From contig NZ_KB908384.1 of assembly GCF_000381005.1 (NCBI RefSeq), positions 1 through 64,000 on the forward strand: a DNA stretch of 64,000 nt, written 5' to 3'. Positions 11,766 through 37,562 of the stretch are shown in pieces. The first letter of the stretch is position 1. Every line of letters begins with the position of its first letter. The notes beneath the pieces are model-generated. The model did not search any database, had not been told where the DNA came from, and saw only the letters and a program-made list of their open reading frames with translations. A program made the position numbers and the translations under genes. Source of the stretch: Selenomonas bovis DSM 23594. Lineage in GTDB: Bacteria; Bacillota; Negativicutes; Selenomonadales; Selenomonadaceae.

Positions 11766-13182
11766 ATACCGGCTTGCGTCGCTGCGGCGCAGCATGTGCG
11801 CGCCGCGTATCTCGACAAAGATTACGGCGCTTTACGCGCTCCTCCTGTCGCTGATCCTCATCATCACGATATTCAGCATGGGGCTTGGCATCTATTTCTC
11901 CATCTATCATCAGGCGGAGCGCGAGATCGATATCTCGGTGCAGCAGGTCCTGCAGAAGCTCGAGAACGGAGCGGACTTCACGCAGTCCTTCTGGGATGAT
12001 GATCCTGTGCTGCCAGGTGTCGTGCTGCGCGTGACGAATATCACGGGGCGCGTCGTCTTCGAGAACGACTCGCATTTCCCGCCGCTCGAGGAGGTGGCGG
12101 CGAACACGCGCGACTGGTCGCCGTTCTTGTCGGACAAGAACCTGCGCGTCGCTGATATCGGGAACTGGAGCATCTACCATGAGGAGATCGATGTCATGCA
12201 TGACGGCTCCATCTACACGCTGCATTTCCTGCGGACGATCACGGCGGAGCGCCAGTTCCTCAAGCATGTGCAGCAGTTCCTCATTTTCGCGATGATCGTC
12301 GGTTTCATCTTTGCGCTCGCCATGGGGTATCTCGCGAGCCGCCGCATCCTGAAGCCCATCCGGACGCTCACGGCGACAGCGCGCAAGATCGAGATCGAGC
12401 GCATGGACCGGCGCATCGAGGTGCCTGAGGCACGGGATGAACTCACAGAGCTCACGGTCACGTTCAACCACATGCTCGACCGCCTGCAGGATGGCATCAA
12501 CCAGCAGCAGCGTTTCGTCTCGGATGCCTCGCATGAGCTGCGCACGCCGGTGACGGTCATCCTCGGCTATTCGGATCTGCTCGCGCGCTGGGGGCAGTCA
12601 GATGCCGAGGTGCTCAAGGAGGGCATTTCCTCCATTCGCTCGGAGGCGGAGAATATGCAGCAGCTCATCGAGAAGCTGCTTTTCCTCGCGCGCGCCGACC
12701 AGAAACGGCAGGTGCTTCACAAGGAGGCTCTCGAGCTCTCGGAGCTGCTCGCGGATGTGATGAAGAAGATGAAGCTCGTGACGAAGCGGCATACGGTCGA
12801 GCTCCTGCGGAACGACCCGGGCACGATCTTTGCCGATCCGGTCATGATGCGGCAGATGATGCGCATCTTCCTGGAGAACAGCACGAAGTATACGCCGGCG
12901 GGCGGCCGCATCACGGCCGAGAGCGTGCGCGAGGGGGGCTTCTTCCGCGTGACGTTCGCCGATACGGGCATCGGCATTGCGCCGAAGGACCAGAAGAAGG
13001 TCTTCGAGCGGTTCTACCGCGTCGACACTTCCCGCACGAAAGCGGAGGGCGTGAGCGGCACGGGGCTGGGCCTCTCGATCGCGTCCTGGATTGCCGAGCA
13101 GCACGGCATCGAGATCTCGCTTGAGAGCAATCTCGGCGAGGGCACGCAGATCCACCTGAGAATCCCGCTCATGTGCGGCTGA
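11749..13182 (+). CDS. Membrane sensor histidine kinase
   Basis: A 477-residue kinase paired with the response regulator it overlaps. A first membrane helix spans about residues 26-52 and a second about 177-197; between them lies an extracytoplasmic sensor region of about 120 residues. A HAMP linker follows (ASRRILKPIRTLT), then the HisKA domain with H262 in SDASHELRTP. The ATPase domain has N-box FLENSTKYTP, G1 FADTGIGIAP, F-box FERFYRVDTSR and G2 GTGLGLSIA. All catalytic boxes are intact. The sensor region matches nothing I recognise. Confidence 0.93.
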   Translation: MSSRIKYRLASLRRSMCAPRISTKITALYALLLSLILIITIFSMGLGIYFSIYHQAEREIDISVQQVLQKLENGADFTQSFWDDDPVLPGVVLRVTNITGRVVFENDSHFPPLEEVAANTRDWSPFLSDKNLRVADIGNWSIYHEEIDVMHDGSIYTLHFLRTITAERQFLKHVQQFLIFAMIVGFIFALAMGYLASRRILKPIRTLTATARKIEIERMDRRIEVPEARDELTELTVTFNHMLDRLQDGINQQQRFVSDASHELRTPVTVILGYSDLLARWGQSDAEVLKEGISSIRSEAENMQQLIEKLLFLARADQKRQVLHKEALELSELLADVMKKMKLVTKRHTVELLRNDPGTIFADPVMMRQMMRIFLENSTKYTPAGGRITAESVREGGFFRVTFADTGIGIAPKDQKKVFERFYRVDTSRTKAEGVSGTGLGLSIASWIAEQHGIEISLESNLGEGTQIHLRIPLMCG

Positions 13183-16422: not shown

Positions 16423-16523
16423 CGGCAGAGTAGGTGCCTGCGCGTCAAGTGCCGGTCGGACGGGGAGTTGCCGACTGGACGAAGGGGGAGACCCCGCGGT
16501 GCAGGTGTTGCATCCCGCTGCTG
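16423..16523 (+). promoter_or_regulatory. Tetrahydrofolate riboswitch
   Basis: The 5' leader contains the conserved blocks of the THF (folT) riboswitch in order: GAGTAGGTG, GCGTCAAGTG, GGGGAGTTG, GACGAAGG, CGCGGTG and TTGCATCCCGCTG. CGGCAG (16423-16428) pairs with CTGCTG at the 3' end to close P1. The aptamer ends about 55 bases before the folate transporter start. Its 3' end is near the gene, so control is probably at translation or by a short downstream fold. Known members bind tetrahydrofolate and shut off uptake. Confidence 0.85.
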
Positions 16524-16577
16524 CATGGACGGGATCTTCTCGTGCTGCGGCAACGCTGAACGAGGAGGTCTTTTTTG

Positions 16578-17162
16578 ATGCAGAAATTTCGTCGTGCGCT
16601 CGGTTCGTCCCTTCCTGTGCCGCGGACAGAGGGGCAGGCGGCTGGCTTTGTCTGGTGCGCCGCGTCCCGCACGCGCTCGCTCGTGCTCGCGGGTGTCTTT
16701 GCGGCGCTCACGGTGCTGCTCACATACGTTTTCGCCGTGCAGACGCCGTTCGTGCGCTTCAGCTTCGGCTTTCTGCCGCTCGCGCTCTACGGGGCGCTCG
16801 CTGGGCCGTGGCGGGCGGCGCTCGTCGCGGCGGCGGCGGATCTCATCGGCGTGAGCCTGTTCGGCACGGGCGCGTTCTTCCCGGGCTTCACGTTCTCGGC
16901 GCTGCTCGTGGGGGCGGTCTACGGCGCGTCTTTCCACGGGCGGCCGCTGACGGTCTGGCGCGTGGCGCTGACGTTCCTCTTCGTGGACACGGCGGTGCAT
17001 CTCGTGCTCAATACACTCTGGCTCTATCTGCTCTACGGCAAGGGCGTTGCGGCCCTGCTCGCGAGCCGAGTGCCGAAGATCGTCCTCTGCTATCCGCTGC
17101 GCGTCGCGATGTTCCTCATCGTCAGCCGACCGCTGCTGCAGTTCGCAGCCGGTCGCCGCTGA
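16578..17162 (+). CDS. folT: ECF transporter S component, folate-type (FolT)
   Basis: A 194-residue membrane protein with about six helices, the size and layout of an ECF substrate-binding S component. It has the first-helix motif RSLVLAGVFAALTVLLTYVF, used to dock the shared EcfT subunit, and a loop pattern FSFGFLPLALYGALAGPWRA typical of FolT. The tetrahydrofolate riboswitch just upstream supports folate as the substrate. The shared EcfAA'T module must be encoded elsewhere. The ATG at 16578 follows GAGGAGG; a strong terminator follows at 17222. Confidence 0.88.
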   Translation: MQKFRRALGSSLPVPRTEGQAAGFVWCAASRTRSLVLAGVFAALTVLLTYVFAVQTPFVRFSFGFLPLALYGALAGPWRAALVAAAADLIGVSLFGTGAFFPGFTFSALLVGAVYGASFHGRPLTVWRVALTFLFVDTAVHLVLNTLWLYLLYGKGVAALLASRVPKIVLCYPLRVAMFLIVSRPLLQFAAGRR

Positions 17163-23497: not shown

Positions 23498-23605
23498 CTA
23501 GTAAATCCCCAAGTGCGCAAGCCGTAGGCGCAGCGCGATTGGCTGGATTTACTGCAAGGGCGAGACACAATGTCCACGCAGTGGACGTTTGTGCATGTAG
23601 CTTTG
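23498..23605 (+). repeat. 108-bp interspersed repeat, copy 3
   Basis: Same length and strand as copies 1 and 2. The outer stem GTAAATCC/GGATTTAC and the inner stem GTCCAC/GTGGAC are kept, with loop GCA. The middle stem has changed to GAGACACAA, which can pair with TTTGTGTCTC just past the repeat end, so a long hairpin is preserved by a different partner. Confidence 0.9.
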
Positions 23606-23619
23606 TGTCTCGCGGGAGG

Positions 23620-24393
23620 TCAGATGTAGTATTCCGTCTTGTCCTCGGGTTTTAGCGAGAAGGCGGTGAAGACCCGGTCGCGGATGTGGAGGAAGTCGGG
23701 GCTCGTGCGGTCGCGGCGGCCGTGGAGGTCGACGGGGAGGACGGTCTTGATCTTGCCGGGGTTCGGCGTCATGATGGCGATGCGGTCGGCGAGGACGACG
23801 GCTTCGTCGATGTCGTGCGTGACGAAGATGATGGTTTTCTTCTGCTCGCGGCAGATGGCGGAGATCTCGTCCTGGAGCTTCATGCGCGTGATGGCGTCGA
23901 GCGCGGCGAACGGCTCGTCCATGAAAAGGATGTCGGGGTCGACGGCGAGGGCGCGCGCGATGGCGACGCGCTGCTGCATGCCGCCTGATAGCTCAGCGGG
24001 ATAGTGATCGAAGAAGCTCTCGAGGCCGACGAGCTTCAGGTAGCGGCGGGCTTTCTCCTCGCGCTCTTCCCTGGGGAACTGTAGGCTCTCGAGGCCGAGC
24101 TCGACGTTCTTGCCGACGGTGCGCCAGGGGAGCAGGCCGTAGTTCTGGAAGATGGTGACGCGGCGGATGGAAGGGGCCTCGATGGTCTCTCCGTCGATCT
24201 TCGCGCTGCCGCTCGTCGGCCGGTCGAAGCCCGCGAGGATGGAGAGCAGCGTGCTCTTGCCGCAGCCGGAGGGGCCGAGCAGGCAGATGAATTCGCCGCG
24301 CTCGATGGTGAGGCTGACGTGGTCGAGGGCGGTGAAGTCACCGCCCTTTTTCGGGTAGACGCGCGAGACGTCCTCGATGGTGATGTAGCTCAT
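23620..24393 (-). CDS. ABC transporter ATPase, NitT/TauT (SsuB/TauB) type
   Basis: A 257-residue ATP-binding subunit. Walker A is GPSGCGKSTLL, the signature LSGGMQQRVAIARAL, Walker B ILFMDEPFAALDA, and the switch histidine lies in FVTHDIDEAV. The length and blocks such as TIFQNYGLLPWRTV fit importers of nitrate, sulfonates, taurine or other small anions. It is last in a minus-strand run permease-binding protein-CooS (reading upstream), and its stop is 15 bases from repeat copy 3. Confidence 0.92.
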   Translation of the reverse strand: MSYITIEDVSRVYPKKGGDFTALDHVSLTIERGEFICLLGPSGCGKSTLLSILAGFDRPTSGSAKIDGETIEAPSIRRVTIFQNYGLLPWRTVGKNVELGLESLQFPREEREEKARRYLKLVGLESFFDHYPAELSGGMQQRVAIARALAVDPDILFMDEPFAALDAITRMKLQDEISAICREQKKTIIFVTHDIDEAVVLADRIAIMTPNPGKIKTVLPVDLHGRRDRTSPDFLHIRDRVFTAFSLKPEDKTEYYI

Positions 24394-24490
24394 GGGGTGC
24401 TCCTTTCTCTTCTTATCTGACGCAGGCGGGTCGGATTTGCCGCCAGGGCGCTGTGCGATGGCTGCGAAGCGGACGCTGTGCTTCTTCCTG

Positions 24491-25255
24491 TCAGGCGACG
24501 CGGCTGCCGAAGCGGCGACTCACGGCGCGCTCGACGAGCGTGACGCCGCCGTCTAGAAGCAGGCCGAGCACGCCGATGGTGATGATGGCGGCCATGAGGA
24601 GGTCGGCGCGCAGGTTGTTGCGTGCGTCGATGATGAGGAAGCCGAGGCCCGACTGCGCACCGACCATCTCGCCCGCGACGAGGAAGACCCAGGCGGTGCC
24701 GAGCGCGAGGTGGAGACCGGTCGCGATGCGCGGGAAGACGGCGGGGAAGACGATCTTCGCGAGGAGCGCGGGCTGGCGGATGCCGAAGTTCTGCGCGACC
24801 TTGAGGTAGACGGGCGCGATGTCATGCACGGCGGCGACGGTCGCGAGCAGCACGGGGAAGAAGGCCGCGATGAAGATGATGACGAGCGCGGGCATCTCGC
24901 CGATGCCGAAGATGAGGACGATGAAGGGCAGCCAGGCCATCGGCGAGATGGGCCGGAGCACCTGCGCGATGGGATTGAGATAGGCCCAGACGCCGCGGTA
25001 CCAGCCGAGCACGAGGCCGAGCAGCATCGCGAGCAGGACGGAGGAGAAGTAGCCGACGGCGAAGCGGTAGAGGCTCGCGCCGATGTCCTTGAGCAGCACA
25101 CCGTCCGCGATGAGCTCATGGAGCCCCTGGAGCGTCGCGAGCGGCGAGGGGAAGAGCGCCTCGTTGTAGCCGCCGAGGGAGAGCAGCGCCTGCCAGGCGA
25201 GGAGTACGAGGAGGAGCGCGCCGAGCAGATGGCGCGCGGTTTTCTGAAGGTTCAT
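24491..25255 (-). CDS. ABC transporter permease, NitT/TauT (SsuC/TauC) type
   Basis: A 254-residue inner-membrane permease with six predicted helices. The ATPase-contact EAA loop appears as LKVAQNFGIRQPALLAKIVFP, followed by FPRIATGLHLALGTAWVFLVAGEM, the characteristic ending of the SsuC/TauC branch. It is 4 bases downstream of the binding-protein gene, so the two are coupled, and 97 bases upstream of the ATPase gene. Confidence 0.92.
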   Translation of the reverse strand: MNLQKTARHLLGALLLVLLAWQALLSLGGYNEALFPSPLATLQGLHELIADGVLLKDIGASLYRFAVGYFSSVLLAMLLGLVLGWYRGVWAYLNPIAQVLRPISPMAWLPFIVLIFGIGEMPALVIIFIAAFFPVLLATVAAVHDIAPVYLKVAQNFGIRQPALLAKIVFPAVFPRIATGLHLALGTAWVFLVAGEMVGAQSGLGFLIIDARNNLRADLLMAAIITIGVLGLLLDGGVTLVERAVSRRFGSRVA

Positions 25256-25259
25256 GGGA

Positions 25260-26231
25260 TCACGTCCTTTCGGAGGAGGCGGGGAGCAGCGTGGGGTCGA
25301 CGAAGTCCTCGTAGGCGGGGGCGTTCTGGATGAGGCCCGTGTCCGTCATGCGGCGGATGAGCTCGTCGTAGGCGTCCGGGCGGATGGCGAGGTCGTCGTA
25401 GGAGATCCACCGGAGAGAGAGGTCGAGCACGGCGGGCTTGGCCTTGAAGACGCTCTGCGCGAGGTCGGCGGCCTCGTCTGGGTGCGCGGCAAGCTCTTCG
25501 CCTGCCGCGAGGTAGCCCTGCGTCACGCTCCGTGCGAGGTCGTGGTTCGCGCGCGCGAAGGCGCCGTTGAAGACGAGGGCGCAGCAGAGGCTGCCGGGCC
25601 AGAGGTCCTCGGAGCGCGCGAGGATGTGGCCGGTGCCGAGTGTGACCGCCTTCGCGCCGAAGGGCTCGGCGACGCAGTAGCCCGCGATCTGTCCCTGCGC
25701 GAGGCCCGCGGGCATCTCAGGCGGCGACATCTCGACGACGGTGAGGTCGCGCTCCGTCATGCCGTGCTCCGCGAGGAGCTGGTCGAGCAGGAGCTTGTGG
25801 GAGGATTGCTTGTGCGGGATGGCGAAGATCTTCCCCCGGAGGTCCTCGACGCGCTCGATGCCGTTTCCCGCGATGATGACGTTGCCGTCGCGGTGGCCGA
25901 GCGCGGCGGCTGTGAGGTCGATGCCCTGCTCGCGCGCCTTGACCGCGAGCTCGATGAGCACGGAGGCGCCGTCGACCTTGCCGGTGTTGAGCGCGTCCAT
26001 GAGCTCGGGCCAGGAGCCGTAGCGGATGAGCTCGATCCTGACGGGGCCGCCCGCTGCCGCGAGCGTCTGCGACGCCTCGAAAAGAGGCAGCGCGTGCGTG
26101 ATGGGCAGGTAGGCGATGCGGACGGTCCTGACGCCGTCTTTTGCCGCGCGCGGCGCGCCGGGCTGCTCGCCGCAGCCCGCGATAAGGAGCGCGAGCAGGA
26201 GTGTGAGGATGAGAATGGGCAGACGCTTCAT
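25260..26231 (-). CDS. ABC transporter substrate-binding lipoprotein, NitT/TauT type
   Basis: A 323-residue solute-binding protein. The lipobox is LLIAGC, so Cys20 would be lipid-anchored. The mature part has the SsuA/TauA-like opening VRTVRIAYLPITHALPLFEA, a KVDGASVLIELAVKA loop, and GYCVAEPFGAKAV. The ligand is not evident. The start at 26231 follows AAAGGAGG; the longer open frame upstream overlaps the CooS gene and is spurious. It lies 124 bases after cooS on the same strand. The group also includes binding proteins for riboflavin and pyrimidine precursors, so sulfonate should not be assumed. Confidence 0.88.
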   Translation of the reverse strand: MKRLPILILTLLLALLIAGCGEQPGAPRAAKDGVRTVRIAYLPITHALPLFEASQTLAAAGGPVRIELIRYGSWPELMDALNTGKVDGASVLIELAVKAREQGIDLTAAALGHRDGNVIIAGNGIERVEDLRGKIFAIPHKQSSHKLLLDQLLAEHGMTERDLTVVEMSPPEMPAGLAQGQIAGYCVAEPFGAKAVTLGTGHILARSEDLWPGSLCCALVFNGAFARANHDLARSVTQGYLAAGEELAAHPDEAADLAQSVFKAKPAVLDLSLRWISYDDLAIRPDAYDELIRRMTDTGLIQNAPAYEDFVDPTLLPASSERT

Positions 26232-26287
26232 AGAGCGGCCTCCTTTCGGTGGAGCAGATGGCGGCGCATACGGCAGGCCGCGTGGAG

Positions 26288-26304
26288 TTAGGGAATCACT
26301 GTTT
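26288..26304 (+). repeat. REP-like motif copy
   Basis: TTAGGGAATCACTGTTTAT, a partial match to the scattered family, in the gap between cooS and the transporter. Confidence 0.35.
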
Positions 26305-26355
26305 ATGCGAGGGCTTAGCCTCTTGCTGTCGGGTGGCTGCGCCCAGAAGCTTTGC

Positions 26356-28419
26356 TTACTTCCAGCCGAGTGCCTGGCGCGCCTTCTCGATGTCGGCGAT
26401 AATCTGCTTCGCGAGGGCTTTCGGATCGGTGTTGACGACCATGACGGCGCCGAGGGTTTCCTTCGTGTCGTGCTTGAGGAACCGCTCGACGTTCGGCGCG
26501 CCCTGCACGGGCGGCTCGACGCAGTGGTAGGAGTCGATGCCGAAGAGGCGGAACGCGAGGGAGGCGTCGAGGCCTTTCTCGTTCGACCATTCGGGGCTCG
26601 CGAACGCGTAGGGCATGTCCTTGATGGCGTGGCCCGCGGCCTGCGCGATGCCGCCGAAGACGGTCGAGGCGCGCGTGTTGTCGATGCACTCGCCCATGTG
26701 CCAGACGGGCGGCAGCTTGCCCGCGAGGAATTGCTGCAGGTGCGCGCCGGCCTTCGCCGCCCCCGCCTTGCTGCAGTAGCCGAGCTTGAGCAGCGGGAAC
26801 GAGGCGCAGCCGTTCGTGAAAATGAGGATGTCGTTTTTGAGCAGTTCGTCGGCGACGTCGACGACGGCGCGCTCGTAGACGACGCGCGGGTTGCTGCAGC
26901 CGACCATGTTGACGATGCCGCGGATCTCGCCGCTCTTGAGCGCCGCTGCGAGCGTGCCGAAGCCGCCGAACTCCTCGGCGATGTTCTCCGCGTTGAAGCC
27001 GACATCTGCGGTGACCTCATAGGCCGGGATGAAGACGGGGACGTCGCGGCGGGCCGCGAAGCTCTCGATGCCGCGCGTGACGATCTTGCGCGCGAGCTTT
27101 TCCGTGTCCTCGATGTTCGAGTGATGGTGGTCGTAGGCGTAGTGCTCGGCCCCGGGCAGGCGGGCGCTGTCGCTCGTCGTGACGACGGTCGTCTTGAAGC
27201 AGCGCGCGACGTCCATGATGGCCGGATAGACGTCTTGCACGTCCGCGACCCAGAGGTCGAGCGCGCCCGTGCCGAGCACGAGCTCCGCGCCGACGGCGTT
27301 CGAGAGCGGGATGACGCCCTCGTAGCGGTACATGGCGGCGAGACACGAGCAGCAGATGCCGTAGAACTGGATGCCCTTCGCGCCGGCCTTTTTCGCCTTT
27401 TCCTGGAATTCCTCCGAGCGGCCGATGCGCACGATCTCGGAGACGAGCGTCGGCAGGTGGCCGTGCACGGCGATGTTGACGTAGCCCTTCTTGAGCGCGC
27501 CGATGTTGACTTTCGACGTCGCGCGGTGGCCGATGCCGAACATCGCGTCGGTGCCGATGTTCGAGGCGACGACGCCCGTGAAGCAGAACGCGAGGCCGCA
27601 GCGCAGGAACTGCTGCATGATGCTCCGCCAGTCGCCGTCCGTGCCGACGCCCGTGCGGTGGTAGGCGTCGAAGACCTCGTTGTAGGCGCTGATGGGCAGG
27701 ATGTCGAGCTTCTGCCAGACCTCCTGCCGCTCCTTCGGCGCGAGCGCCTTGATCGTCTCGTAGTCGTCGGGCGTCGGGCGCGAGAGGTCGGCGAGCAGGA
27801 CGTCCGCGAGCTTGCCCGCGAGGCGCTTCGCGCTCTGGCCGCGCGTCTCGATGCCGAACGCGCGGCAGACCTCGCGGATGCGCTTCTCGCCGAGCAGCGG
27901 CAGCGCGAGCCGCCCTTCGGCGATGAATTTCAGCGAGAGCAGGATCTCCCGTGCGTGCGCGCCGTGCTGCGCCACGCCCGCCGCCGCGCTGCGCAGCAGA
28001 TTGCGGCTGACGATGAGGTCGGCGTCGGCGCCGCAGACGCCGCGCGGGCTCTTCGGCGTGATCTTGCACGGCCCCATATTGCAGATCTTGCAGCAGACGC
28101 CCGCGAGACCGAACGAGCACTGCGGCTTCTGCGCGTCGAAGCGGTCGAAGACCGTCGAGATGCCGATCTGCTCCATGCGCAGCATCATCTCGCGCACGGC
28201 CGGGTCCGGCGTGTGGTCGAGGACGTCCTGCTTCGAGGCGAACGTCTTGCGGTACTCGGCGACCGCCTTCATGTAGTCGGCCACGCCGCCGTGGACATGC
28301 GGATGGCTGTGGTCATGCCTGTGCGCGTGGTCGTGTGCGTGGTCATGCGGATGCGCATGGTCGTGTGCGTGGAGGTGTTCCTGCTCGTGCGTGTGCTCGT
28401 GGCGATCGTTCGTGCTCAT
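26356..28419 (-). CDS. CooS-family CODH-fold protein with a substituted active-site ligand and a His-rich N terminus
   Basis: A 687-residue member of the Ni,Fe CO dehydrogenase (CooS) family. Cysteines for clusters D and B are present: C101, C109, C110, C113, C118 and C129. At the active-site C-cluster, His319/321 (VHGH), Cys356/357 (GICC), Cys508 (VGCSN), Cys538 (TNGCA), Cys578 (HMGEC) and Lys615 (NEKG) are kept. The cysteine that bridges the unique iron in Carboxydothermus CODH-II (Cys333, in YQC) is Asp396 here (DVQDVYP, codon GAC). From memory, the CooS-V paralogue lacks one such cysteine, holds an Fe/S/O cluster and does not turn over CO. Residues 1-43 hold 18 histidines, a probable metal-binding tail. 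No acsB, cooF or cooC is nearby. Confidence 0.9.
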   Translation of the reverse strand: MSTNDRHEHTHEQEHLHAHDHAHPHDHAHDHAHRHDHSHPHVHGGVADYMKAVAEYRKTFASKQDVLDHTPDPAVREMMLRMEQIGISTVFDRFDAQKPQCSFGLAGVCCKICNMGPCKITPKSPRGVCGADADLIVSRNLLRSAAAGVAQHGAHAREILLSLKFIAEGRLALPLLGEKRIREVCRAFGIETRGQSAKRLAGKLADVLLADLSRPTPDDYETIKALAPKERQEVWQKLDILPISAYNEVFDAYHRTGVGTDGDWRSIMQQFLRCGLAFCFTGVVASNIGTDAMFGIGHRATSKVNIGALKKGYVNIAVHGHLPTLVSEIVRIGRSEEFQEKAKKAGAKGIQFYGICCSCLAAMYRYEGVIPLSNAVGAELVLGTGALDLWVADVQDVYPAIMDVARCFKTTVVTTSDSARLPGAEHYAYDHHHSNIEDTEKLARKIVTRGIESFAARRDVPVFIPAYEVTADVGFNAENIAEEFGGFGTLAAALKSGEIRGIVNMVGCSNPRVVYERAVVDVADELLKNDILIFTNGCASFPLLKLGYCSKAGAAKAGAHLQQFLAGKLPPVWHMGECIDNTRASTVFGGIAQAAGHAIKDMPYAFASPEWSNEKGLDASLAFRLFGIDSYHCVEPPVQGAPNVERFLKHDTKETLGAVMVVNTDPKALAKQIIADIEKARQALGWK

Positions 28420-28439
28420 GGTGACTCTCCTTTTTATTT

Positions 28440-28501
28440 GTAAGCATATATATTTACTATGAATTGCTTTTCACTATACAGCATTTTGCGGCGTGTGTCA
28501 A
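28440..28501 (-). promoter_or_regulatory. cooS promoter with an adjacent inverted repeat
   Basis: On the minus strand TTGACA (28501-28496), a 17-base spacer and TATAGT (28478-28473). Downstream of the -10, bases 28440-28457 form an imperfect palindrome with GTAA...TTAC ends (14 of 18 match), a candidate operator for an unknown regulator. Confidence 0.7.
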
Positions 28502-28682
28502 TGTGTAACCTGCGCGGTGGTGAAGAAATTTCTGAGGCGTGGTGCGTCCGCTGGAAAAGAGGGGTGCGGCGGCAACGCTCCGCGCGGAGGAGAGGGGGCT
28601 GAAAGGAGGTTGCCCGCAGCGATAGAGAGGAATCGGCGGCGCGGCGTCGAATGAGAGATAGCGAAGGGAGATGCATTTTTTT

Positions 28683-29111
28683 ATGAAGCCTTGGCTTTTT
28701 TACGCGCTGCTGTCGGCGGTCAGCGCGGCGTTCGTATCGATTTTCGGAAAGATGGGGCTGGCGGGACTCGATAGCAACGCGGCGACGGCGGTGCGCGCTG
28801 TTATCATGGCGGCGTTCCTCGTCGGCGTCGTCGCCGTCGAGGGGCACGGCGCGAGCATGGCGGCGGTATTCGCCGACCGCAGGGCGCTGCTCTGGATCGC
28901 GCTCAGCGGTATCGCGGGCGCGCTGTCGTGGCTGTTCTATTTCCTGGCGCTCAAGTACGGCAAGGTCTCCGAGGTCGCGCCCATCGACAAGCTCAGCGTC
29001 GTCTTCGCCGTCCTGCTCGCCGTGGTGCTCTTCGGCGAGCGCGTGAGCGCCCTGCACGCCGTCGCAATCGGGCTCATCGCCGCGGGCGGCCTCATGCTGG
29101 CGGTGTTCTAG
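28683..29111 (+). CDS. EamA/DMT-family membrane protein, half-size
   Basis: A 142-residue protein of the drug/metabolite transporter superfamily. It has about five hydrophobic segments and one EamA domain (FYALLSAVSAAFVSIFGKMG, VSEVAPIDKLSVVFAVLLA, FGERVSALHAVAIGLIAAGG). Full-length members carry two such domains, so this one must pair with itself, as small EamA proteins do. The ATG at 28683 is 12 bases from GAAGGGAG. The substrate is unknown. Its stop codon is the first base triplet of a REP-like motif. Confidence 0.82.
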   Translation: MKPWLFYALLSAVSAAFVSIFGKMGLAGLDSNAATAVRAVIMAAFLVGVVAVEGHGASMAAVFADRRALLWIALSGIAGALSWLFYFLALKYGKVSEVAPIDKLSVVFAVLLAVVLFGERVSALHAVAIGLIAAGGLMLAVF

Positions 29112-30454: not shown

Positions 30455-30602
30455 ACCGCGCAGGAAGACGCCGCGCGTGTCTGCGGCGTGAGGCGCGGCG
30501 GTTCCCGCGCTGACATTGCCGCATGCGTGTGCGCTGCGCGGCAGGCAGCTTGCAGGTAGATTTTGCGTCGCGTCCTGCGGGACGCGCGAAAAGGAGGATT
30601 TC

Positions 30603-31367
30603 ATGGAGACGCTTTCACCGGAACTATTGGCATTCCTCGTCGTGTTCGGATTCGGCGCGGCGTTCATCGACTCGGTGGTCGGCGGCGGCGGTCTGATCTC
30701 GCTGCCCGCGCTGCTCTGGATCGGTCTGCCGCCGCATCTCGCGCTCGGCACGAACAAGGCGGCAGCCGTGATGGGCGCGCTCGCGAGTTTCGCGACGTTC
30801 GTGCGCTCGGGGCGCGTGAACGGCTGGCTCATCCGCCGGCTGTTCCCGCTCTCGCTCATCGGTTCGGCGGCCGGCGTGCTCGTCGTGCGGCAGATCTCGC
30901 CGGACGTGCTGCGGCCGCTCGTCGTCGTCATGCTCGCGGTCGTGCTCGTCTACAGCGTGCTCAAGAAGGACTGGGGGCGGGAGAACCGCTACCACGGCAT
31001 GACGCGCCGGATGCTCCTGCTCTCTGGGTGCGTGGCGTTCTCGTTCGGTTTCTACGATGGCTTTTTCGGCCCCGGTACGGGCTCTTTCCTGCTCTTTTCG
31101 TTCCTGCTCGTGGGATTTGATTTCCTCGGGGCGGCGGCGAACGCGCGCGCGCTCAATTTCGCGAGCAATATCGCGGGCGTCGTGATGTTCGGCATTCTGG
31201 GACTCATTGATTTCTCGTATGCGCTGCCGATGGGGCTCTCGATGATCGTGGGCGCCTGGTGCGGCGCGCACATGGCGCTCAAAAAGGGCACGGGCTATGT
31301 GCGTCCGCTCTTCATCGTGATGACGACGGTGCTCATCGGCAAGCAGATCATTGACTTGCTGAAATAG
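30603..31367 (+). CDS. TSUP/DUF81-family permease
   Basis: A 254-residue membrane protein of the TauE/SafE family. The two related halves are marked by VFGFGAAFIDSVVGGGGLISLPALLWIGLP, read in two pieces (DSVVGGGGLISLPALL and the second-half GFYDGFFGPGTGSFLLFSFL), and a LALGTNKAAAVMGAL motif that is diagnostic of this branch. Substrates are sulfur-containing or carboxylate anions and cannot be specified. The ATG at 30603 follows AAAAGGAGG; the longer frame upstream is soluble-looking. It is followed 11 bases later by a Nudix gene. Confidence 0.88.
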   Translation: METLSPELLAFLVVFGFGAAFIDSVVGGGGLISLPALLWIGLPPHLALGTNKAAAVMGALASFATFVRSGRVNGWLIRRLFPLSLIGSAAGVLVVRQISPDVLRPLVVVMLAVVLVYSVLKKDWGRENRYHGMTRRMLLLSGCVAFSFGFYDGFFGPGTGSFLLFSFLLVGFDFLGAAANARALNFASNIAGVVMFGILGLIDFSYALPMGLSMIVGAWCGAHMALKKGTGYVRPLFIVMTTVLIGKQIIDLLK

Positions 31368-31378
31368 GAGGTGGGCAG

Positions 31379-31873
31379 GTGAAAGGCAGGAAGAAGACGA
31401 ATCTCACGACGCTCTGCTATCTCGAGCGCGACGGTGCGTATCTCATGATGCACCGCGTGAAGAAGGCGCACGATATCAACCATGACAAGTGGGTGGGCGT
31501 CGGCGGCCATTTCGAGCCGGACGAGAGTCCGGAGGAATGTCTGCTGCGCGAGGTGCGCGAGGAGGCGGGCGTCGTGCTCGATTGCTACCGGCTGCGCGGC
31601 GTCATCACGTTCTCGTCGGATGCGTGGCAGACGGAGTACATGTTCCTCTACACGGCGGACGCCTGGCATGGCGAGCTCGCCGGGCCGGAGGACTGCGATG
31701 AGGGGCGGCTCGCCTGGGTGAAGAAGGAGGCGGTCTGCCGCCTGCCCCTCTGGGAGGGGGACAAGATCTTCTTCCGCCTGCTCGCGGCGGAGCGGCCGTT
31801 CTTCTCGTTGAAGCTGCGGTATGAGGGCGACGCGCTCGTCGAAAAGGCGCTTGACGGTAGGCCGCTGCCTTGA
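31379..31873 (+). CDS. Nudix hydrolase, MutT/8-oxo-dGTPase-like, GTG start
   Basis: A 164-residue Nudix protein. The Nudix box is intact at about residues 41-63 (GGHFEPDESPEECLLREVREE, catalytic REVREEAG). The lead-in TTLCYLERDGAYLMMHRVKK and the insertion HDINHDKWVGVG fit 8-oxo-dGTP diphosphatases of Firmicutes that clean the nucleotide pool. The GTG at 31379 is preceded by AGGAGG. It shares a transcript with the TSUP gene and lies 40 bases before the jetABC operon, with no terminator between. Confidence 0.87.
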   Translation: MKGRKKTNLTTLCYLERDGAYLMMHRVKKAHDINHDKWVGVGGHFEPDESPEECLLREVREEAGVVLDCYRLRGVITFSSDAWQTEYMFLYTADAWHGELAGPEDCDEGRLAWVKKEAVCRLPLWEGDKIFFRLLAAERPFFSLKLRYEGDALVEKALDGRPLP

Positions 31874-31913
31874 GCGGCGGTCTTGCGTGTTCCGGAATTT
31901 TCAGGAGGAAACA

Positions 31914-33425
31914 TTGAACGAAACGGATGTCAGTCTCTACAGCAGCCTGCGCGCCCTGCGTCAGGGGCATGCCGCCTGGCGGCTCCTCGCAGCGGATCAG
32001 GCTGCTTTTATCGTGTCGTTTTTCGAGCGGGAGTTCCTGCGGCCGGGGCGCCGCGCCATCCCGGAGGCGGAGCTCCTGCGCGATCTCGAGGCGTATCTCG
32101 GCGAGGTGCAGCAGGCGGCGGGCGAGGGCCTGCTGCGCCCGGCGCGCGCGTATCTGCTCGCGTGGGCGGACGCGGAGCACGGCTGGCTCACGCGGTTCCA
32201 CGGGGCGGACGATGTGCCCTGCTACGATCTCACGGCGGCTGCGGAGCAGGCGGTGGGGTTCGTGCGCTCGCTGACGCGCGAGGAGGTGCTCGGCACGGAG
32301 TCACGCCTGCGCACGGTGGTCTCGCTGCTCGATGAGATCGCGGAGGACCGCGACGAGGATGCCGGACGGCGGGAGCAGCGGCTCCTCGCGCGGCGCGCGG
32401 AGATCGACGCGGAGCTCTCGGAGCTGCGGCGCACGGGAAAGGTACGGCCGCGGCTCACGGCGGGGCAGGTGCGCGAGCGCTACCAGCAGGCGCGCGAGAC
32501 GGCAGCGGGCATCGTGCGCGATTTCCGCGCGCTCGAGGAGGAGTTCTCCGCGCTCGAGCGCGGGCTCATGCAGGAAGTCGTGACGTGGCAGGAGGGCAAG
32601 GGCGAGCTTTTGCGGCGTGTGTTCGCGCAGGGGGATGTCATCCGCGAGTCGCCGCAGGGGCGGAGCTTCGCGCTCTTCTGGCAGTTCCTCATGCAGCCGG
32701 AGGAGCAGGCGTCGCTCGCGCGTCTGCTCGAGGAGGTCGCGCGCGTGCCGGAGCTAAAAGACCTCGCGGCGGTGGACGGCGCGAGGCTCGAGGATCTGCC
32801 GCGCACGTGGATCCGCGGCGCGGCGGCGGTGCAGCAGACGATCGCGCAGCTCTCGCGTCAGCTGCGCCGCTATGTGGACGAGCGGTTCCTCACGCAGGAG
32901 CGCGCGATCTTCCGCCGCATCCAGTCCCTCGAGGGCGCGGCGATGGCGGTGCGCGAGGCGCCGCCGCAGGGAGAGTTCCTCGCCATCGATCTGCCGCGCG
33001 CGGCGGTCAATCTGCCGCTCGACCGCCGGCTCTTCCAGCCGCCGTTCCGCCTGCGCCTGCGCGACCATGCGCTTGCGGGCGGCGAGCAGGCGGCGGGGGC
33101 GGCGCGCGGCAGGGAGGCGCTTGGTCGCGCGCTCTCGCAGCCGCATGTCGACCGCAGGGCGCTGCGCGGCTATATCGAGGAGGCGCGGGTGGCCGCGGGC
33201 GGGCGCGCCGTGACGCTCACGGAGGTGCTCGCGCGCCATCCGCTCACGCAGGGCCTTTCCGAGCTGCTCGCGTATTTCGTGCTCGCGGGGCATCAGGCAG
33301 GGGCGGTGCAGCGGACGGCGGTGCCGCTCGCGTCTGTCGCGTATGAGCAGGCGGGGCATCGCCTGCGCGCGCGGTGCGAAGAGGTCGTGTTTTATCCGGC
33401 AGAGGAGAAAGGCGGTAAGCAGTGA
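31914..33425 (+). CDS. jetA: JetA/MksF-like kleisin subunit (DUF3375), TTG start
   Basis: A 503-residue DUF3375 protein, the kleisin-like (MukF-type) subunit of the JetABC/MksBEF condensin. The N-terminal winged-helix region begins NETDVSLYSSLRALRQGHAAWRLL; a long charged coiled coil spans about residues 120-270 (RREQRLLARRAEIDAELSEL); the C terminus holds VTLTEVLARHPLTQGLSELLAYF. The start is TTG at 31914 after AGGAGG, because no ATG fits the homology. It overlaps jetB by 4 bases. JetA bridges the SMC-like heads of JetC. Confidence 0.85.
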   Translation: MNETDVSLYSSLRALRQGHAAWRLLAADQAAFIVSFFEREFLRPGRRAIPEAELLRDLEAYLGEVQQAAGEGLLRPARAYLLAWADAEHGWLTRFHGADDVPCYDLTAAAEQAVGFVRSLTREEVLGTESRLRTVVSLLDEIAEDRDEDAGRREQRLLARRAEIDAELSELRRTGKVRPRLTAGQVRERYQQARETAAGIVRDFRALEEEFSALERGLMQEVVTWQEGKGELLRRVFAQGDVIRESPQGRSFALFWQFLMQPEEQASLARLLEEVARVPELKDLAAVDGARLEDLPRTWIRGAAAVQQTIAQLSRQLRRYVDERFLTQERAIFRRIQSLEGAAMAVREAPPQGEFLAIDLPRAAVNLPLDRRLFQPPFRLRLRDHALAGGEQAAGAARGREALGRALSQPHVDRRALRGYIEEARVAAGGRAVTLTEVLARHPLTQGLSELLAYFVLAGHQAGAVQRTAVPLASVAYEQAGHRLRARCEEVVFYPAEEKGGKQ

Positions 33426-34225
33426 ACGAGGAAGATCTGGAGTTTTCGCGCGCGGCGGTAGCGCTCCTGCGCGGCGTCGTCGAGCGGCGCGCGGATGAGG
33501 CGCTCTATCAGACGATATGCGCACAGGAGCAGGCGCTCAAGGAGTATTTCCATCGGCTCGGGCTCCTGCTCACGGTGGACGCAGCGGATGAGTACGCGTA
33601 CTTGCGCCAGGATGAGGCGTCCGGCGTGCCGCGGCTCATGGCGCGCACGCAGCTCAGCTATCCATTGAGCCTACTCCTGCTGCTCCTGCGGAAGCGGCTC
33701 GGCGAGTACGACGCGCTCGAGGGAGACAGCCGCCTCATCCTCTCGAGCGCGCAGATGGCGGAGATCCTCGCGCCGTTCTTCCCGCAGGTGACGGATCGGG
33801 TGCGGTTCCTCGCGCGCGTGCGCCAGCAGGCGGAGCGCGCGGCGTCGCTGGGCTTTTTGCACCGCCTCGCGGGCGAGGATGCCTATGAGGTGCTGCCGCT
33901 CCTGCGCAGCTTCGTTACGGGCGCGTGGCTCGAGGAGTTCTCCGAGCGGCTCGCGCAGTACCGCGCCTACGGCGCCGCGCAGCAAGAGATCGCGGCGGAG
34001 CCGTCAGAGGAGGCGGCTCTGTCGCTCGCGCCGGCAGAGGAGGCACCGGAAGAGACAGCGCTGCCGCGCACGTCGGCAGAAGAGAGGCCGGAGGAAACGG
34101 CGCAGCCGCATGCGCCGGAGCATACGCCGGAGGAAACGACGCTGCCGCTCATGACGGCAGGGAAGACGCGGCCGCGGGGGCTGAGAATCGCGGAGAAAGA
34201 GGAGGATGACGATGGACTTGTTTGA
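33422..34225 (+). CDS. jetB: JetB/MksE-like subunit (DUF4194) with a repetitive acidic tail
   Basis: A 267-residue DUF4194 protein, the MukE-like partner in the condensin. Residues 1-190 form the conserved winged-helix part (FSRAAVALLRGVVERRADEAL, YAYLRQDE, YPLSLLLLLLRKRLGEYD, LAEDAYEVLPLLRSF-like block). The rest is an odd low-complexity tail of repeated P-E-E-T units rich in Glu, Ala and Pro (about 195-255) that is not part of the domain. The start is GTG overlapping the jetA stop (GTGA), and the gene overlaps jetC by 20 bases, so all three are translationally coupled. Confidence 0.85.
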   Translation: MNEEDLEFSRAAVALLRGVVERRADEALYQTICAQEQALKEYFHRLGLLLTVDAADEYAYLRQDEASGVPRLMARTQLSYPLSLLLLLLRKRLGEYDALEGDSRLILSSAQMAEILAPFFPQVTDRVRFLARVRQQAERAASLGFLHRLAGEDAYEVLPLLRSFVTGAWLEEFSERLAQYRAYGAAQQEIAAEPSEEAALSLAPAEEAPEETALPRTSAEERPEETAQPHAPEHTPEETTLPLMTAGKTRPRGLRIAEKEEDDDGLV

Positions 34226-37200
34226 GGAGGCGGCGCGCCCGCCGCAGCTCGGGTTCCGCCTCGCGCGGCTCGAGGTCTACAACTGGGGCACGTTTGACGG
34301 CGAGGTCTGGTCGCTCGCGCCCGAGGGCGCGACGTCGCTGCTCACGGGCGATGTCGGCTCGGGCAAATCGACGCTCGTCGACGCCATCATCACGCTGCTC
34401 GTGCCGCCGCGCCGCATCACCTACAACAAGGCGGCGGACGCGAGTGCAAAGGAGCGCAGTCTGAGCTCCTACGTGCGCGGCTACTACGCGCACCATTCGA
34501 CGGCGGAGGGGACGAGCCGCCCCGAGGCGCTGCGCGACAAGCGGGAATACAGCGTGATCCTCGGCGTGTTCACCGACGAGAATTTCGGCCGCTCGGTCAC
34601 GCTCGCACAGGTTTTCTGGTACAAGTCGGAGAGTGCGGCGACGCCGTCGCGCCTCTATGTGCTCGCGGAAAAGCCGCTCTCCATCGCGGAGCGTTTCTCG
34701 CGCCTCGGCGGCGATATGCGCGCGTTCCGCAAGCGGCTCGAGGCGGACGATTTCATCCATACCTACGACGACTATCCGCTCTACGGTCGCGACTTCCGCA
34801 AGCTCTTCGGCATCCGGCAGGAGCAGGCGCTCGACCTCTTCCAGCAGACGATCTCTCTGAAGAAGGTGGACTCGCTCACGGAGTTCGTGCGCGCGAACAT
34901 GCTCGAGACGCCGGACGCCGAGGGCCTGCTCGCGGGGCTCCTGCACCAGTTCCGCGATCTCGAGGCGGCGCATGCCTCGGTCGTGCGGGCCAGGGAGCAG
35001 CAGCAGCTCCTCGTGCCGGTGCGCGAGACGGGTGCGCGCTACCGCAGGCTGCGCAGTGAGCGAGAGACGTACGAGCGCATGGGTGAGGTGCTGCCCGCCT
35101 GGCTCGCACGGCGCGATATCGCCGCGCTCGCGGCGCAAGCGGAGGCGGCGGAGCAGCAGCGGCAGACGCTCTCGGGTGAGATTGCCGCGCTCGCGGATGA
35201 GCGGCGGGCGGCGGAGCGCAGGCTAGCCGCCGTGCGCGCAGGCCTTGCGCAGCAGGGCGGCGCGCGTCTCGCGGCACTCGAGGGGCAGCTCGCAGCGCTC
35301 GAGGAAAAGCAGGAAGCCCGGCGCGCGGCCGCCGCGCGCTATGAGGAAAGCGCGGCGGTGCTGGGGCTTGCCGTGCCGGAGACGGCGGCGGCGTTCGCGG
35401 CGAACCGCGCGCAGGCGCAGGCGGCTGCGGCTGCTGCGGAGGAAGAACTCGAGCAGGCGGAGGAGGAGCTCGCGGACCAGCAGGGGAATCTCAAGGAGGT
35501 CGAGGCGCGTCTCGCGCGGCTCGATGAGGAGATTGCCTCGCTGGCCGCGCGCAAGTCGAGCATCCCCTCGGCTTTCGTGCGCCTGCGCGACGCGCTCGCG
35601 GAGGATCTCGGCCTCGCGGCGGCGGAGCTGCCGTTCGCGGGCGAGCTCATGGAGGTCCGCGCGGAGGAGTGCGCCTGGGAAGGGGCGCTCGAGCGTCTGC
35701 TGCACGGCTTCGCGCTCTCGTTGCTCGTGCCGGAGGCACACTACGGCGAGGTCGTCGGCTGGATGGAACAGCATCGCCTCGCCGTGCGCCTCGTCTATTA
35801 CCGCGCGGAGGACGCGCTGCCGCTCGCGGATTTCTCCGCGCTTTCGGAGGATGCTGCCTGCTGCAAGCTCGCCGTGCGGCAGGAGAGCCCGCTCGCGGGC
35901 TGGCTCACGCAGGAGCTCGCGCGGCGGTTCCGCCATACCTGCTGCGAGTCGCTGCGTGCGTTCCGCGCCGAGGACTATGCGCTCACGCGTGCGGGACAGG
36001 TGAAGACCGGCGGCCGCCGCCATGAGAAGGACGACCGCCGCGCCATCGACGACCGCCGCCAGTACGTCATGGGCTTCTCCAACCTGCGCAAGGTTGAGGC
36101 GCTTCGCCAGGAGGCCGCCGATCAGGCGCAGGAGCGCGAGGATTTAAAGGCGCTCCTGCGGCGCTGCAAGGCGCAGCGGAAAAAGGCACGCCAGTGCGGC
36201 GAGGCGGGCATGCGCCTCTCTGCAGCCGCTGCGTTCACGGCCATCGATACGGCCGATGTGGCGCGGGATATTCAGACGGCGCGCGCGGAGATCGCCGCGC
36301 TTCGGGCGGAGGATGACGCGGGTCAGAAGCTGCGCGGCGAGGAGCAGGAACTGCTCACGCGACTCAGCGGCCTGCGCCGCGCCATCGAGAGCAGGCAGCG
36401 CACGCTGAGTCGCTGCGAGCTCGTGCTCGAGCAGCTGCAGGCCGACCGCGCGGCCGACCAGGCGGAGCTCGCGCGCACGGACGCGCTGGCCCTCGCGAAG
36501 GCGGAGCCGTTGCTCACGGCACACGCAGCAGACGCCTGGGGCGGGCGCACGTTCGCACACGAGGAGCGGCAGTCCCTGCAGAATAGTTACCAGAACTGGC
36601 TCGGGGCGCGGCAACGCGAGACGGCGCGGGAGCTCGAGACGGAGACGAGCCGCCTCGCGGCAGCGATGGAGGCGTTTAACCGCTCGTTCCCCGCGCAGGC
36701 GCGCGATCTCCTGCCGCGCCCCGAGGCGCAGGCGGAGTACGAGGCGCTCCTCGAGGATCTCGAGCGCGACGGCCTGCCTCAGTACGAGCGGCGGTTCCGC
36801 GCGCTGCTCGAGGAGAACACCATCAACCAGATGGCGCTCTTCTACGCGAATCTCAAACTGCGCGCGCAGGAAATCAAGGAACGCATCGCGAGCATCAACG
36901 CCTCGCTCAAGGGCATCGACTACGACGCGGGCCGCTACATCGAGATTTCCTGCGTGCATACGCACGTGCGTGCGGTGCAGGAATTCCGCCGCGCGCTCGA
37001 CGCCTGCATGGCGGCGGCCGCCGATGCGCCGGACGGCTGCGGCGAGCAGCAGTACGCGCAGGTCGCGGCGCTCGCCTCGCGCCTGCGCGCCGACACCGAG
37101 GAGGACAAGCGCTGGCGGCGCGAGGTCGTCGACGTGCGCAACTGGTTCGACTTCGCGGCGGCCGAGTGCTGGCGCGAGACGGGTGAGGAGTACGAGCATT

Positions 37201-37562
37201 TCACCGACTCGGGCGGCAAGTCCGGCGGGCAGAAGGAAAAGCTCGCCTACACCATCCTCGCGGCGAGCATCGTCTATAACTTCGGCCTCGAGGGCAGCCA
37301 CGCGGGCGAGCAGTCACTGCGCTTCGCCGTCATCGACGAGGCGTTCCTCAAGAGCTCCGACGCCTCCGCGCGCTTCGGCCTCAAGCTCTTCCAGCAGCTC
37401 GACCTCCAGCTCCTCGTCGTCACCCCGCTGCTCAAGATCCCGACCATCGCCCCCTTCGTCCAGCACGTCGGCTTCGTCTGGCAGGACGACGTGCAGCACC
37501 GCTCGTATCTCCGGAACATCAGCATCGAGGAATTCACGGCGGAGCAGGAGGGGCAGCGCTGA
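34206..37562 (+). CDS. jetC: JetC/MksB-like SMC ATPase
   Basis: A 1118-residue SMC-like ATPase. The N-terminal head starts LGFRLARLEVYNWGTFDG with Walker A GDVGSGKSTL at about residues 48-57. Two long coiled-coil arms (about 270-480 and 640-930) flank a hinge region. The C-terminal head has the signature TDSGGKSGGQKEKLAY and Walker B RFAVIDEAFLKS. Together with JetA and JetB it forms a loop-extruding motor. In Wadjet systems a fourth protein, JetD, cleaves the looped plasmid; here the next gene downstream is an unrelated convergent gene. So the set is either an MksBEF-type chromosome organiser or a Wadjet that has lost its nuclease. Confidence 0.9.
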   Translation: MTMDLFEEAARPPQLGFRLARLEVYNWGTFDGEVWSLAPEGATSLLTGDVGSGKSTLVDAIITLLVPPRRITYNKAADASAKERSLSSYVRGYYAHHSTAEGTSRPEALRDKREYSVILGVFTDENFGRSVTLAQVFWYKSESAATPSRLYVLAEKPLSIAERFSRLGGDMRAFRKRLEADDFIHTYDDYPLYGRDFRKLFGIRQEQALDLFQQTISLKKVDSLTEFVRANMLETPDAEGLLAGLLHQFRDLEAAHASVVRAREQQQLLVPVRETGARYRRLRSERETYERMGEVLPAWLARRDIAALAAQAEAAEQQRQTLSGEIAALADERRAAERRLAAVRAGLAQQGGARLAALEGQLAALEEKQEARRAAAARYEESAAVLGLAVPETAAAFAANRAQAQAAAAAAEEELEQAEEELADQQGNLKEVEARLARLDEEIASLAARKSSIPSAFVRLRDALAEDLGLAAAELPFAGELMEVRAEECAWEGALERLLHGFALSLLVPEAHYGEVVGWMEQHRLAVRLVYYRAEDALPLADFSALSEDAACCKLAVRQESPLAGWLTQELARRFRHTCCESLRAFRAEDYALTRAGQVKTGGRRHEKDDRRAIDDRRQYVMGFSNLRKVEALRQEAADQAQEREDLKALLRRCKAQRKKARQCGEAGMRLSAAAAFTAIDTADVARDIQTARAEIAALRAEDDAGQKLRGEEQELLTRLSGLRRAIESRQRTLSRCELVLEQLQADRAADQAELARTDALALAKAEPLLTAHAADAWGGRTFAHEERQSLQNSYQNWLGARQRETARELETETSRLAAAMEAFNRSFPAQARDLLPRPEAQAEYEALLEDLERDGLPQYERRFRALLEENTINQMALFYANLKLRAQEIKERIASINASLKGIDYDAGRYIEISCVHTHVRAVQEFRRALDACMAAAADAPDGCGEQQYAQVAALASRLRADTEEDKRWRREVVDVRNWFDFAAAECWRETGEEYEHFTDSGGKSGGQKEKLAYTILAASIVYNFGLEGSHAGEQSLRFAVIDEAFLKSSDASARFGLKLFQQLDLQLLVVTPLLKIPTIAPFVQHVGFVWQDDVQHRSYLRNISIEEFTAEQEGQR

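Follow-up and report, generated by a model that had tools for sequence, protein, structure and literature searches.

The window analysed here, a stretch of 64,000 nucleotides from Selenomonas bovis DSM 23594 (contig NZ_KB908384.1, positions 1 to 64,000), carries a cooS-type gene of clade B whose product has the fold of carbon monoxide dehydrogenase (CODH) but an aspartate in place of one cysteine ligand of the C-cluster. Clade B cooS is associated with cysteine and methionine genes via common sites, gene order and riboswitches, and a sulfur role for the window CooS is likely. On balance we think it probable that this CODH-fold metalloenzyme works in sulfur acquisition, being repressed when cysteine is plentiful and otherwise reductively freeing sulfide or a thiol from an imported anionic sulfur compound. 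Sets of genes like this one are induced by cysteine shortage, and the enzyme should therefore provide sulfur. As far as the literature searched shows, this assignment is new: no title or opening of an abstract joined clade B CODH with cysteine, CymR, a riboswitch or sulfur assimilation, in a search that left most subscription-journal papers outside its scope, so that earlier print is possible; a text search of PMC2940859 gave no match. The features concerned are as follows.

26356..28419, minus: cooS-type gene (clade B, group B-1), 687 amino acids; open reading frame list, TIGR01702, Pfam and tree
28291..28398, minus: His-rich N-terminal region, residues 8-43; translation
27232..27234, minus: Asp396 codon GAC at the CODH-II Cys333 position; alignment to 7err
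26689..26691, minus: Glu577 codon GAG at the CODH-II Ser525 position, adjoining the Cys526 ligand; alignment
28473..28501, minus: sigma-70-type promoter TTGACA-17-TATAGT, 11/12 matches; pattern scan
28442..28464, minus: operator-like imperfect palindrome ATTCATA-N9-TATGCTT just downstream of the -10 box
25260..26231, minus: NMT1_2/SsuA-like substrate-binding lipoprotein; NCBIfam, Pfam; nearest solved relative 3un6
24491..25255, minus: NitT/TauT-type ABC permease; NCBIfam, Pfam
23620..24393, minus: NitT/TauT-type ABC ATPase; NCBIfam, Pfam

Sites and gene order common to cooS and sulfur genes

An imperfect palindrome immediately following the -10 box is common to the upstream regions of Selenomonadaceae cooS genes, and a search pattern was derived solely from footprints of these regions (L033, L041, L053 and L054 left out). 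The window copy follows the only sigma-70-type promoter detected in 23500-28800 and is the best match within the 64 kb to AAACATA-N9-TATGTTT. Across the 2.69 Mb own genome (G000), sites with 0-1 mismatch or a both-strand match lie at cooS, cysK (C21), metY (C28), metNIQ (C8) and a sulfite-reductase run (C19), the target genes being named by NCBIfam. The site ends 47 bp before the start codon of cysK (a chosen ATG), 41 bp before that of metY and 23 bp before that of metN. At C19 it ends 393 bp before a ThiF-like gene, in a run of ThiF/MoeB-like, sulfite reductase-like and O-acetylhomoserine sulfhydrylase-like (pyridoxal phosphate enzyme) genes that also encodes a protein with no NCBIfam match, which reads as a putative JAMM peptidase. 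The mark of membership in a cysteine/methionine regulon, a palindrome common to cooS and cysK, metY and metNIQ, is present in the genome itself.

Fifteen genomes were searched with AAACATA-N9-TATGTTT, and the matches listed are those of G023, G044, G016, G056, G035, G008 and G000 and the first of G005. Among them, at least 31 places differ from the palindrome at no more than one position. The perfect copies among the matches listed number 12, come from five cooS-bearing genomes (G000, G005, G008, G016 and G044), and all precede either cysK, metY or metN (10) or the MFS gene directly before cooS in Mitsuokella (2). Setting cooS and the MFS gene aside leaves 25 listed places, 15 of them at cysK, metY, metN or the sulfite-reductase run; target proteins in the related genomes have 68-100% identity to those of the own genome. 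A site with three or fewer mismatches was present in 14/16 of the Selenomonadaceae cooS upstream regions used, a count that is partly circular as the motif was built from these regions, and no such site was found upstream of cooS in two Megasphaera or in Veillonella ratti. The putative repressor at the palindrome is probably a CymR-like Rrf2 protein, judging from its gene's place next to cysK, from which it is divergently oriented in G016, G023 and G044. Relatives of this protein at 61-100% occur in 11/11 searched genomes of the window's family, with weak matches in two Megasphaera-type genomes; its score against the CymR model is 94 bits, below the cut-off of 195.

Links to sulfur also occur beyond the family. 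An S-adenosylmethionine (SAM) riboswitch, confirmed by Rfam in both cases, precedes cooS in Clostridium luticellarii (89.5 bits) and Clostridium sp. D53t1 (68.5 bits), the pattern starting 293 bp ahead of the cooS reading frame in the former and 386 bp ahead of it in the latter, on the same strand; no further S-box pattern match was found in the 1.94 Mb searched, which comprised clade B and control loci. Of 80 named loci, 20 were scanned with Rfam and the others with our own S-box and T-box patterns, which can miss examples (an earlier version missed L111). Rfam gave no riboswitch near cooS in the window and none on L193-L196, L214, L226 or L258. A T-box, cysE, cysK and cooS are consecutive in Megasphaera L037, and L040 is alike, with its T-box found by pattern only. 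L055 has an Rfam-confirmed T-box on the opposite strand facing a MetY-like gene (36% identity), while T-boxes at L045 and three controls were found by pattern only and are not upstream of cooS.

Gene order gives further links, with metY and cysK following ABC-cooS in Pseudobutyrivibrio, and cooS-ABC-cysK in Ruminococcus, in one case with a LysR regulator and metY further along. The longest example is a same-strand run in Butyrivibrio (G102, L076) of cysK, patB-like, metB-like, nifB-like, nifH-like, cysK, nifD-like, nifK-like, nifX-like, ABC, cooS, amino-acid ABC and LysR genes, in which nifD-like is an NCBIfam assignment under its cut-off, one cysK was named by BLAST, and patB, metB, nifB, nifH, nifK and nifX by reading. 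At Butyrivibrio L258 a nitrogenase-like set, possibly a sulfur-salvage reductase, lies within a cysteine/methionine gene run adjoining cooS. The clade B set comprises 109 loci less eight duplicate CooS loci, that is 101 proteins with the window's included, and the controls are 32 CooS proteins outside clade B. CysK, MetY, CysE or MetE lies within about 7 kb in 14/101 clade B loci, in 13 of them on the same strand as cooS, versus 0/32 controls (Fisher p 0.022). We take this enrichment as no more than supporting, because the gene classes were picked once the first 80 loci had been inspected, many of the loci are closely related and their lengths differ.

Downstream of cooS and co-oriented with it are genes for a NitT/TauT-type binding lipoprotein, permease and ATPase. 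Such genes adjoin cooS in 70 of the 101 clade B loci versus none of the 32 controls, and matches of >400 bits to the window's binding protein, found in seven of 100 genomes (own included), adjoin cooS each time. Among NCBIfam models, this binding protein scores highest against that of the SsuA sulfonate subfamily (113 bits, below the cut-off of 163.5), and its best solved relative is 3un6 (219 bits; next 51.6). By locus-tag equivalence, 3un6 is presumably the product of the SA0166-0168 operon of Staphylococcus aureus. This identification is helped by the naming of S. aureus as the source of 3un6, there described as a metal-binding relative (Inoue 2019, PMC6344411), and by the listing of SAUSA300_0175 as an NMT1_2 lipoprotein (PMC5020093). 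SA0166-0168 (putative TauBAC) belongs to the CymR regulon and is thought to import taurine, a sulfonate (PMC5480029).

Several loci vary on this arrangement. The Mitsuokella MFS gene (L212 2887-4098, L220 3911 (-)), which has two operator-like sites and scores above the cut-off of an L-lactate MFS model, precedes cooS in place of the ABC transporter. ABC genes adjoin cooS in the Campylobacterales loci L154, L155 and L157, where a BLAST search with the window's binding protein does not pick up the local one, and one of these scores SsuA-like, below the cut-off. At L159 a gene for LarE, a sacrificial sulfur transferase (11581-12405; relative 56-57% identical), comes after the cooS-ABC genes. In the window, a membrane protein of the TauE/SafE (sulfite exporter) family is encoded at 30516-31367 (plus strand), 2.1 kb from cooS on the opposite strand.

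The protein and the clade-wide pocket

The first-pass annotation had placed a CooS homologue at 26356-28419 with aspartate for Cys333, and both claims are borne out. The 687-residue reading frame runs on the minus strand from an ATG at 28419 to a TAA at 26356-26358 and its product matches TIGR01702 (490.2 bits; cut-off 478) and Pfam Prismane. Alignment to CODH-II (7err, an A559W variant of which position 559 was unused) sets Asp396 at the Cys333 position and retains, as had been claimed, the other five C-cluster positions (H319, C357, C508, C538 and C578), so that the complete ligand set of a functional Ni-CODH, His and five Cys, is not present. The acid-base residues are kept (K615 for Lys563, H152 for His93), C101, C109 and C110 form a type II D-cluster (Cys-X7-13-Cys-Cys), and 18 His fall within residues 1-45. 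The predicted model has a mean pLDDT (the per-residue confidence) of 78.5, with residues 100-130 below 50. In the fold comparison CODH-II 1su6 matches with VIA Z 44.9; CooS-type structures lead with Z 43-49, and hybrid cluster protein (HCP) structures score 26.8 and 22.2. That annotation had included neither the His-rich N-terminus nor the ABC genes downstream, the regulatory site or a functional lead.

In a phylogeny of CooS clades, one of the checks it proposed, a branch of length 1.53 with 100/100 support separates the clade B entries (26 of 59 proteins) from all others. In 15 of the 19 genomes searched, no CooS was found other than that of clade B. No relative was found in viral contigs (49 pattern stretches), and the single match at E <= 1e-120 among 345 genomes of an Oscillospirales sample was the sample's centre genome itself. 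In G005, of the same genus (L014, C43:12195-14214), cooS lies in two overlapping frames at 92% and 96% identity, from a frameshift or an assembly error.

Of the 101 clade B proteins, 95 have Asp at position 333 and the other six Glu, against Cys in 32/32 controls, and Asp396 is for this reason neither a slip nor chance. Kept in 101/101 are His261, Cys295, Cys446, Cys476, Cys526 and Lys563, and His93 in 100, with one gap. The pocket otherwise departs from CODH-II throughout the clade: Asp219 is Phe (100) or Tyr (1), and all 101 proteins have Leu for Asn298, Ser, Ala or Thr for Glu299, Glu for Ser525 and Ala for Ile567. We take Ile567 to line the substrate site of CODH, and Asp219 and Glu299 to be part of its proton network; a literature search for an I567A variant of CODH-II found no paper. 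Near-constancy of the clade-specific residues in 101 proteins makes this pocket look like a selected and uniform active site rather than a decayed one. The finding proposed beforehand as evidence against a lost ligand, a cysteine elsewhere in the ligand place, did not hold for the clade: an extra Cys359 near C357 (CCSC; CODH-II position 297) is carried by only 23/101 proteins, and was rejected as a clade-wide compensating residue, while in the window protein itself it may be a ligand.

Eight genes between 22.4 and 31.4 kb were searched with Pfam and, in agreement with the first-pass annotation, no ACS, CooF, CooC or hydrogenase gene was among them. Elsewhere in the window, PADLOC detected JetA, JetB and JetC (Wadjet-type) genes at 31821-37562 (plus strand); no JetD-like reading frame was seen directly after JetC, where our reading of the sequence gives a sulfatase-like membrane protein on the other strand. 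A tetrahydrofolate (THF) riboswitch at 16424-16522 (plus strand; 90.6 bits) precedes a small membrane protein reading frame (16575-17162), possibly the S component of an energy-coupling factor (ECF) transporter.

Weighing the readings

In the mechanism we favour, the repressor would hold expression down from the palindrome at 28442-28464 while cysteine is plentiful; under sulfur shortage the Ssu/Tau-like NitT/TauT transporter would import an anionic sulfur compound, the CooS-like enzyme with its modified C-cluster (Asp/Glu for Cys333 and the other pocket changes) would reductively free sulfide or a thiol from it, and CysK and MetY would fix this product into cysteine and homocysteine. Sulfite is unlikely to be the needed product in four of 13 cooS genomes (G008, G023, G035 and G056; 99-100% complete), because they have no match to the NIR_SIR sulfite reductase family; for this reason, and because CysK and MetY are better matched by sulfide or a thiol, reductive release of sulfide is favoured.

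Several observations weigh against this mechanism. The window cooS copy of the palindrome is the weaker one, with 3/14 mismatches. At two or fewer mismatches the footprint pattern gave 20 strand matches in the own genome and 20 for the reversed-pattern control, and the refined palindrome gave 9 versus 10 in G000, 21 versus 11 in G016, 11 versus 4 in G009 and 6 versus 23 in G063; being mixed against the control, these counts are taken as background, from which only the best sites stand out. Ten of the 25 listed places fall outside the sulfur genes named: two at an amino-acid binding protein whose highest NCBIfam scores, each below cut-off, are to the GlnH, Lys/Arg and cystine models, four uncertain (UroD-like and GST-like by sequence reading, and two M20 amidohydrolases) and four not related to sulfur. 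L046 and L047 have no good site upstream of cooS (4 and 5 mismatches), and G035 and G056 have none with two or fewer mismatches near cooS among the matches listed. Sulfur genes lie near cooS in only the 14 loci counted above. The other nine of the 13 cooS genomes do have an NIR_SIR protein, so that sulfite is a possible product there. Finally, three Clostridiales loci without NitT/TauT genes (L095, L130 and L131) have a CbiM-type cobalt/nickel ECF gene in the same orientation as cooS and 2.5-3.1 kb upstream of it.

The best of the alternatives, possible but unlikely in our view, is a reductase of inorganic sulfur oxyanions such as sulfite or thiosulfate, under the same regulation but importing an inorganic substrate and cutting no C-S bond. 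All the sulfur evidence applies to it equally, transporters of the NitT/TauT type are also used for inorganic anions, and in the four genomes without an NIR_SIR match it could fill that job. The nine genomes with such a protein speak against it, as does the SsuA sulfonate subfamily as best model of the binding protein.

It is improbable, a step below the oxyanion reductase, that the protein is still a CO dehydrogenase in which Asp replaces Cys333 as an iron ligand, CO/CO2 chemistry is kept and its turnover matters under sulfur stress. Conservation of Cys526, His261, Lys563 and (but for one gap) His93 would fit this, as would the TIGR01702 score above cut-off, a His-rich N-terminus suggestive of metal handling and the three ECF loci; the clade-wide replacements of Asp219, Glu299 and Ile567, and the lack of CO-metabolism genes seen nearby, do not. 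Nickel may be present in the cluster, given the kept Cys526 ligand, the His-rich N-terminus and the ECF genes. Against both nickel and retained CO chemistry stands the finding that almost all clade B operons are without maturases (PMC13056359). Lower again we rank the suggestion of Inoue 2019 that the transporter imports nickel or another metal which the His-rich protein stores or uses: the N-terminus, the description of 3un6 as metal-binding (PMC6344411) and the ECF genes beside transporter-less cooS agree with it, but the cysteine/methionine sites, riboswitches and gene neighbours, and CymR control of S. aureus genes of the same type (PMC5480029), make it hard to credit. Least credible of all is a hybrid-cluster-like scavenger of hydroxylamine or nitric oxide resembling CooS-V or HCP, which has the common fold (HCP match Z 26.8) and the exchange of one C-cluster Cys for a carboxylate on its side, but a different Cys is replaced than in CooS-V, the genome's other Prismane-family protein has the stronger Pfam score and is taken as HCP, and the context is sulfur rather than nitrogen oxides.

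Returning to sulfur acquisition, we advance tentatively, and with less confidence than the general role, the narrower idea that clade B proteins are anaerobic desulfurases, in which a carboxylate-ligated Ni/Fe/S cluster on a CODH scaffold would cut C-S (or S-O) bonds of the transported compound under cysteine limitation. They would then be the equivalent, without a need for oxygen, of Ssu/Tau desulfonation and a counterpart to nitrogenase-like sulfur salvage, and widespread among bacteria of the rumen, gut and mouth. A sulfur role makes the question of clade B function directly testable, through the compounds that induce or feed the system and the cluster that Asp/Glu333 supports.

Comparison with known systems

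Group B-1 in Table 2 of Inoue 2019 (PMC6344411) is defined by Asp/Glu at the second C-cluster Cys and a His-rich N-terminus, and the same paper associates clade B with NitT/TauT transporters. The window CooS has all listed features (Asp396, the His-rich N-terminus, the type II D-cluster, acid-base His and Lys, and NitT/TauT neighbours) and no protein difference from the group was found; as the Cys333 to Asp variant was already catalogued there, it is not itself new, whereas the available part of that paper contains no link to a sulfur regulon. A 2026 survey could not deduce the function of clade B (PMC13056359). A survey of the human gut keeps 'cysteine synthase' apart from 'ABC transporter' in its list of context types and counts the clade among potential CO utilizers (PMC11338639); a clade so counted, and annotated as CO dehydrogenase, may have little to do with CO.

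The first-pass annotation had argued from CooS-V that the protein probably should not be called a CO dehydrogenase. Its conclusion that the active site is non-canonical, and that the protein probably does something other than oxidise CO, is supported, but the analogy fails. CooS-V of Carboxydothermus hydrogenoformans (7b7q, PMC9311411) also has a CODH fold with one C-cluster Cys exchanged for a carboxylate, but there, in group D-1, Cys295 is replaced by Glu (PMC9311411; PMC6344411, Table 2), the D-cluster is of type III and Tyr stands in place of the acid-base His, whereas the window CooS changes Cys333, keeps the Cys295 ligand (C357) and has a type II D-cluster and the His. Because of the genome context, the function points to sulfur acquisition and not to hydroxylamine reduction.

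In the CymR regulon of S. aureus, likewise, a single cysteine regulator controls cysK, cystine/methionine transporters and a TauABC-like transporter; no CooS appears in the tables of PMC5480029 that were consulted, and the likeness is one of gene content. CODH-II (1su6/7err) is similar in fold, in five of six C-cluster ligands and in Lys563 and His93, and clade B differs from it in Asp/Glu333, Phe219, Ser/Ala299, Glu525 and Ala567 and in having no CO partners seen nearby. Nitrogenase-like sulfur salvage, that is methylthio-alkane reductase, employs a different metalloenzyme, not encoded in the window; its likeness is one Butyrivibrio cooS beside nitrogenase-like and cysK/metB-like genes, the former possibly encoding such a reductase. 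If the proposed role is true, a sulfur-acquiring enzyme is added to the CODH/HCP fold.

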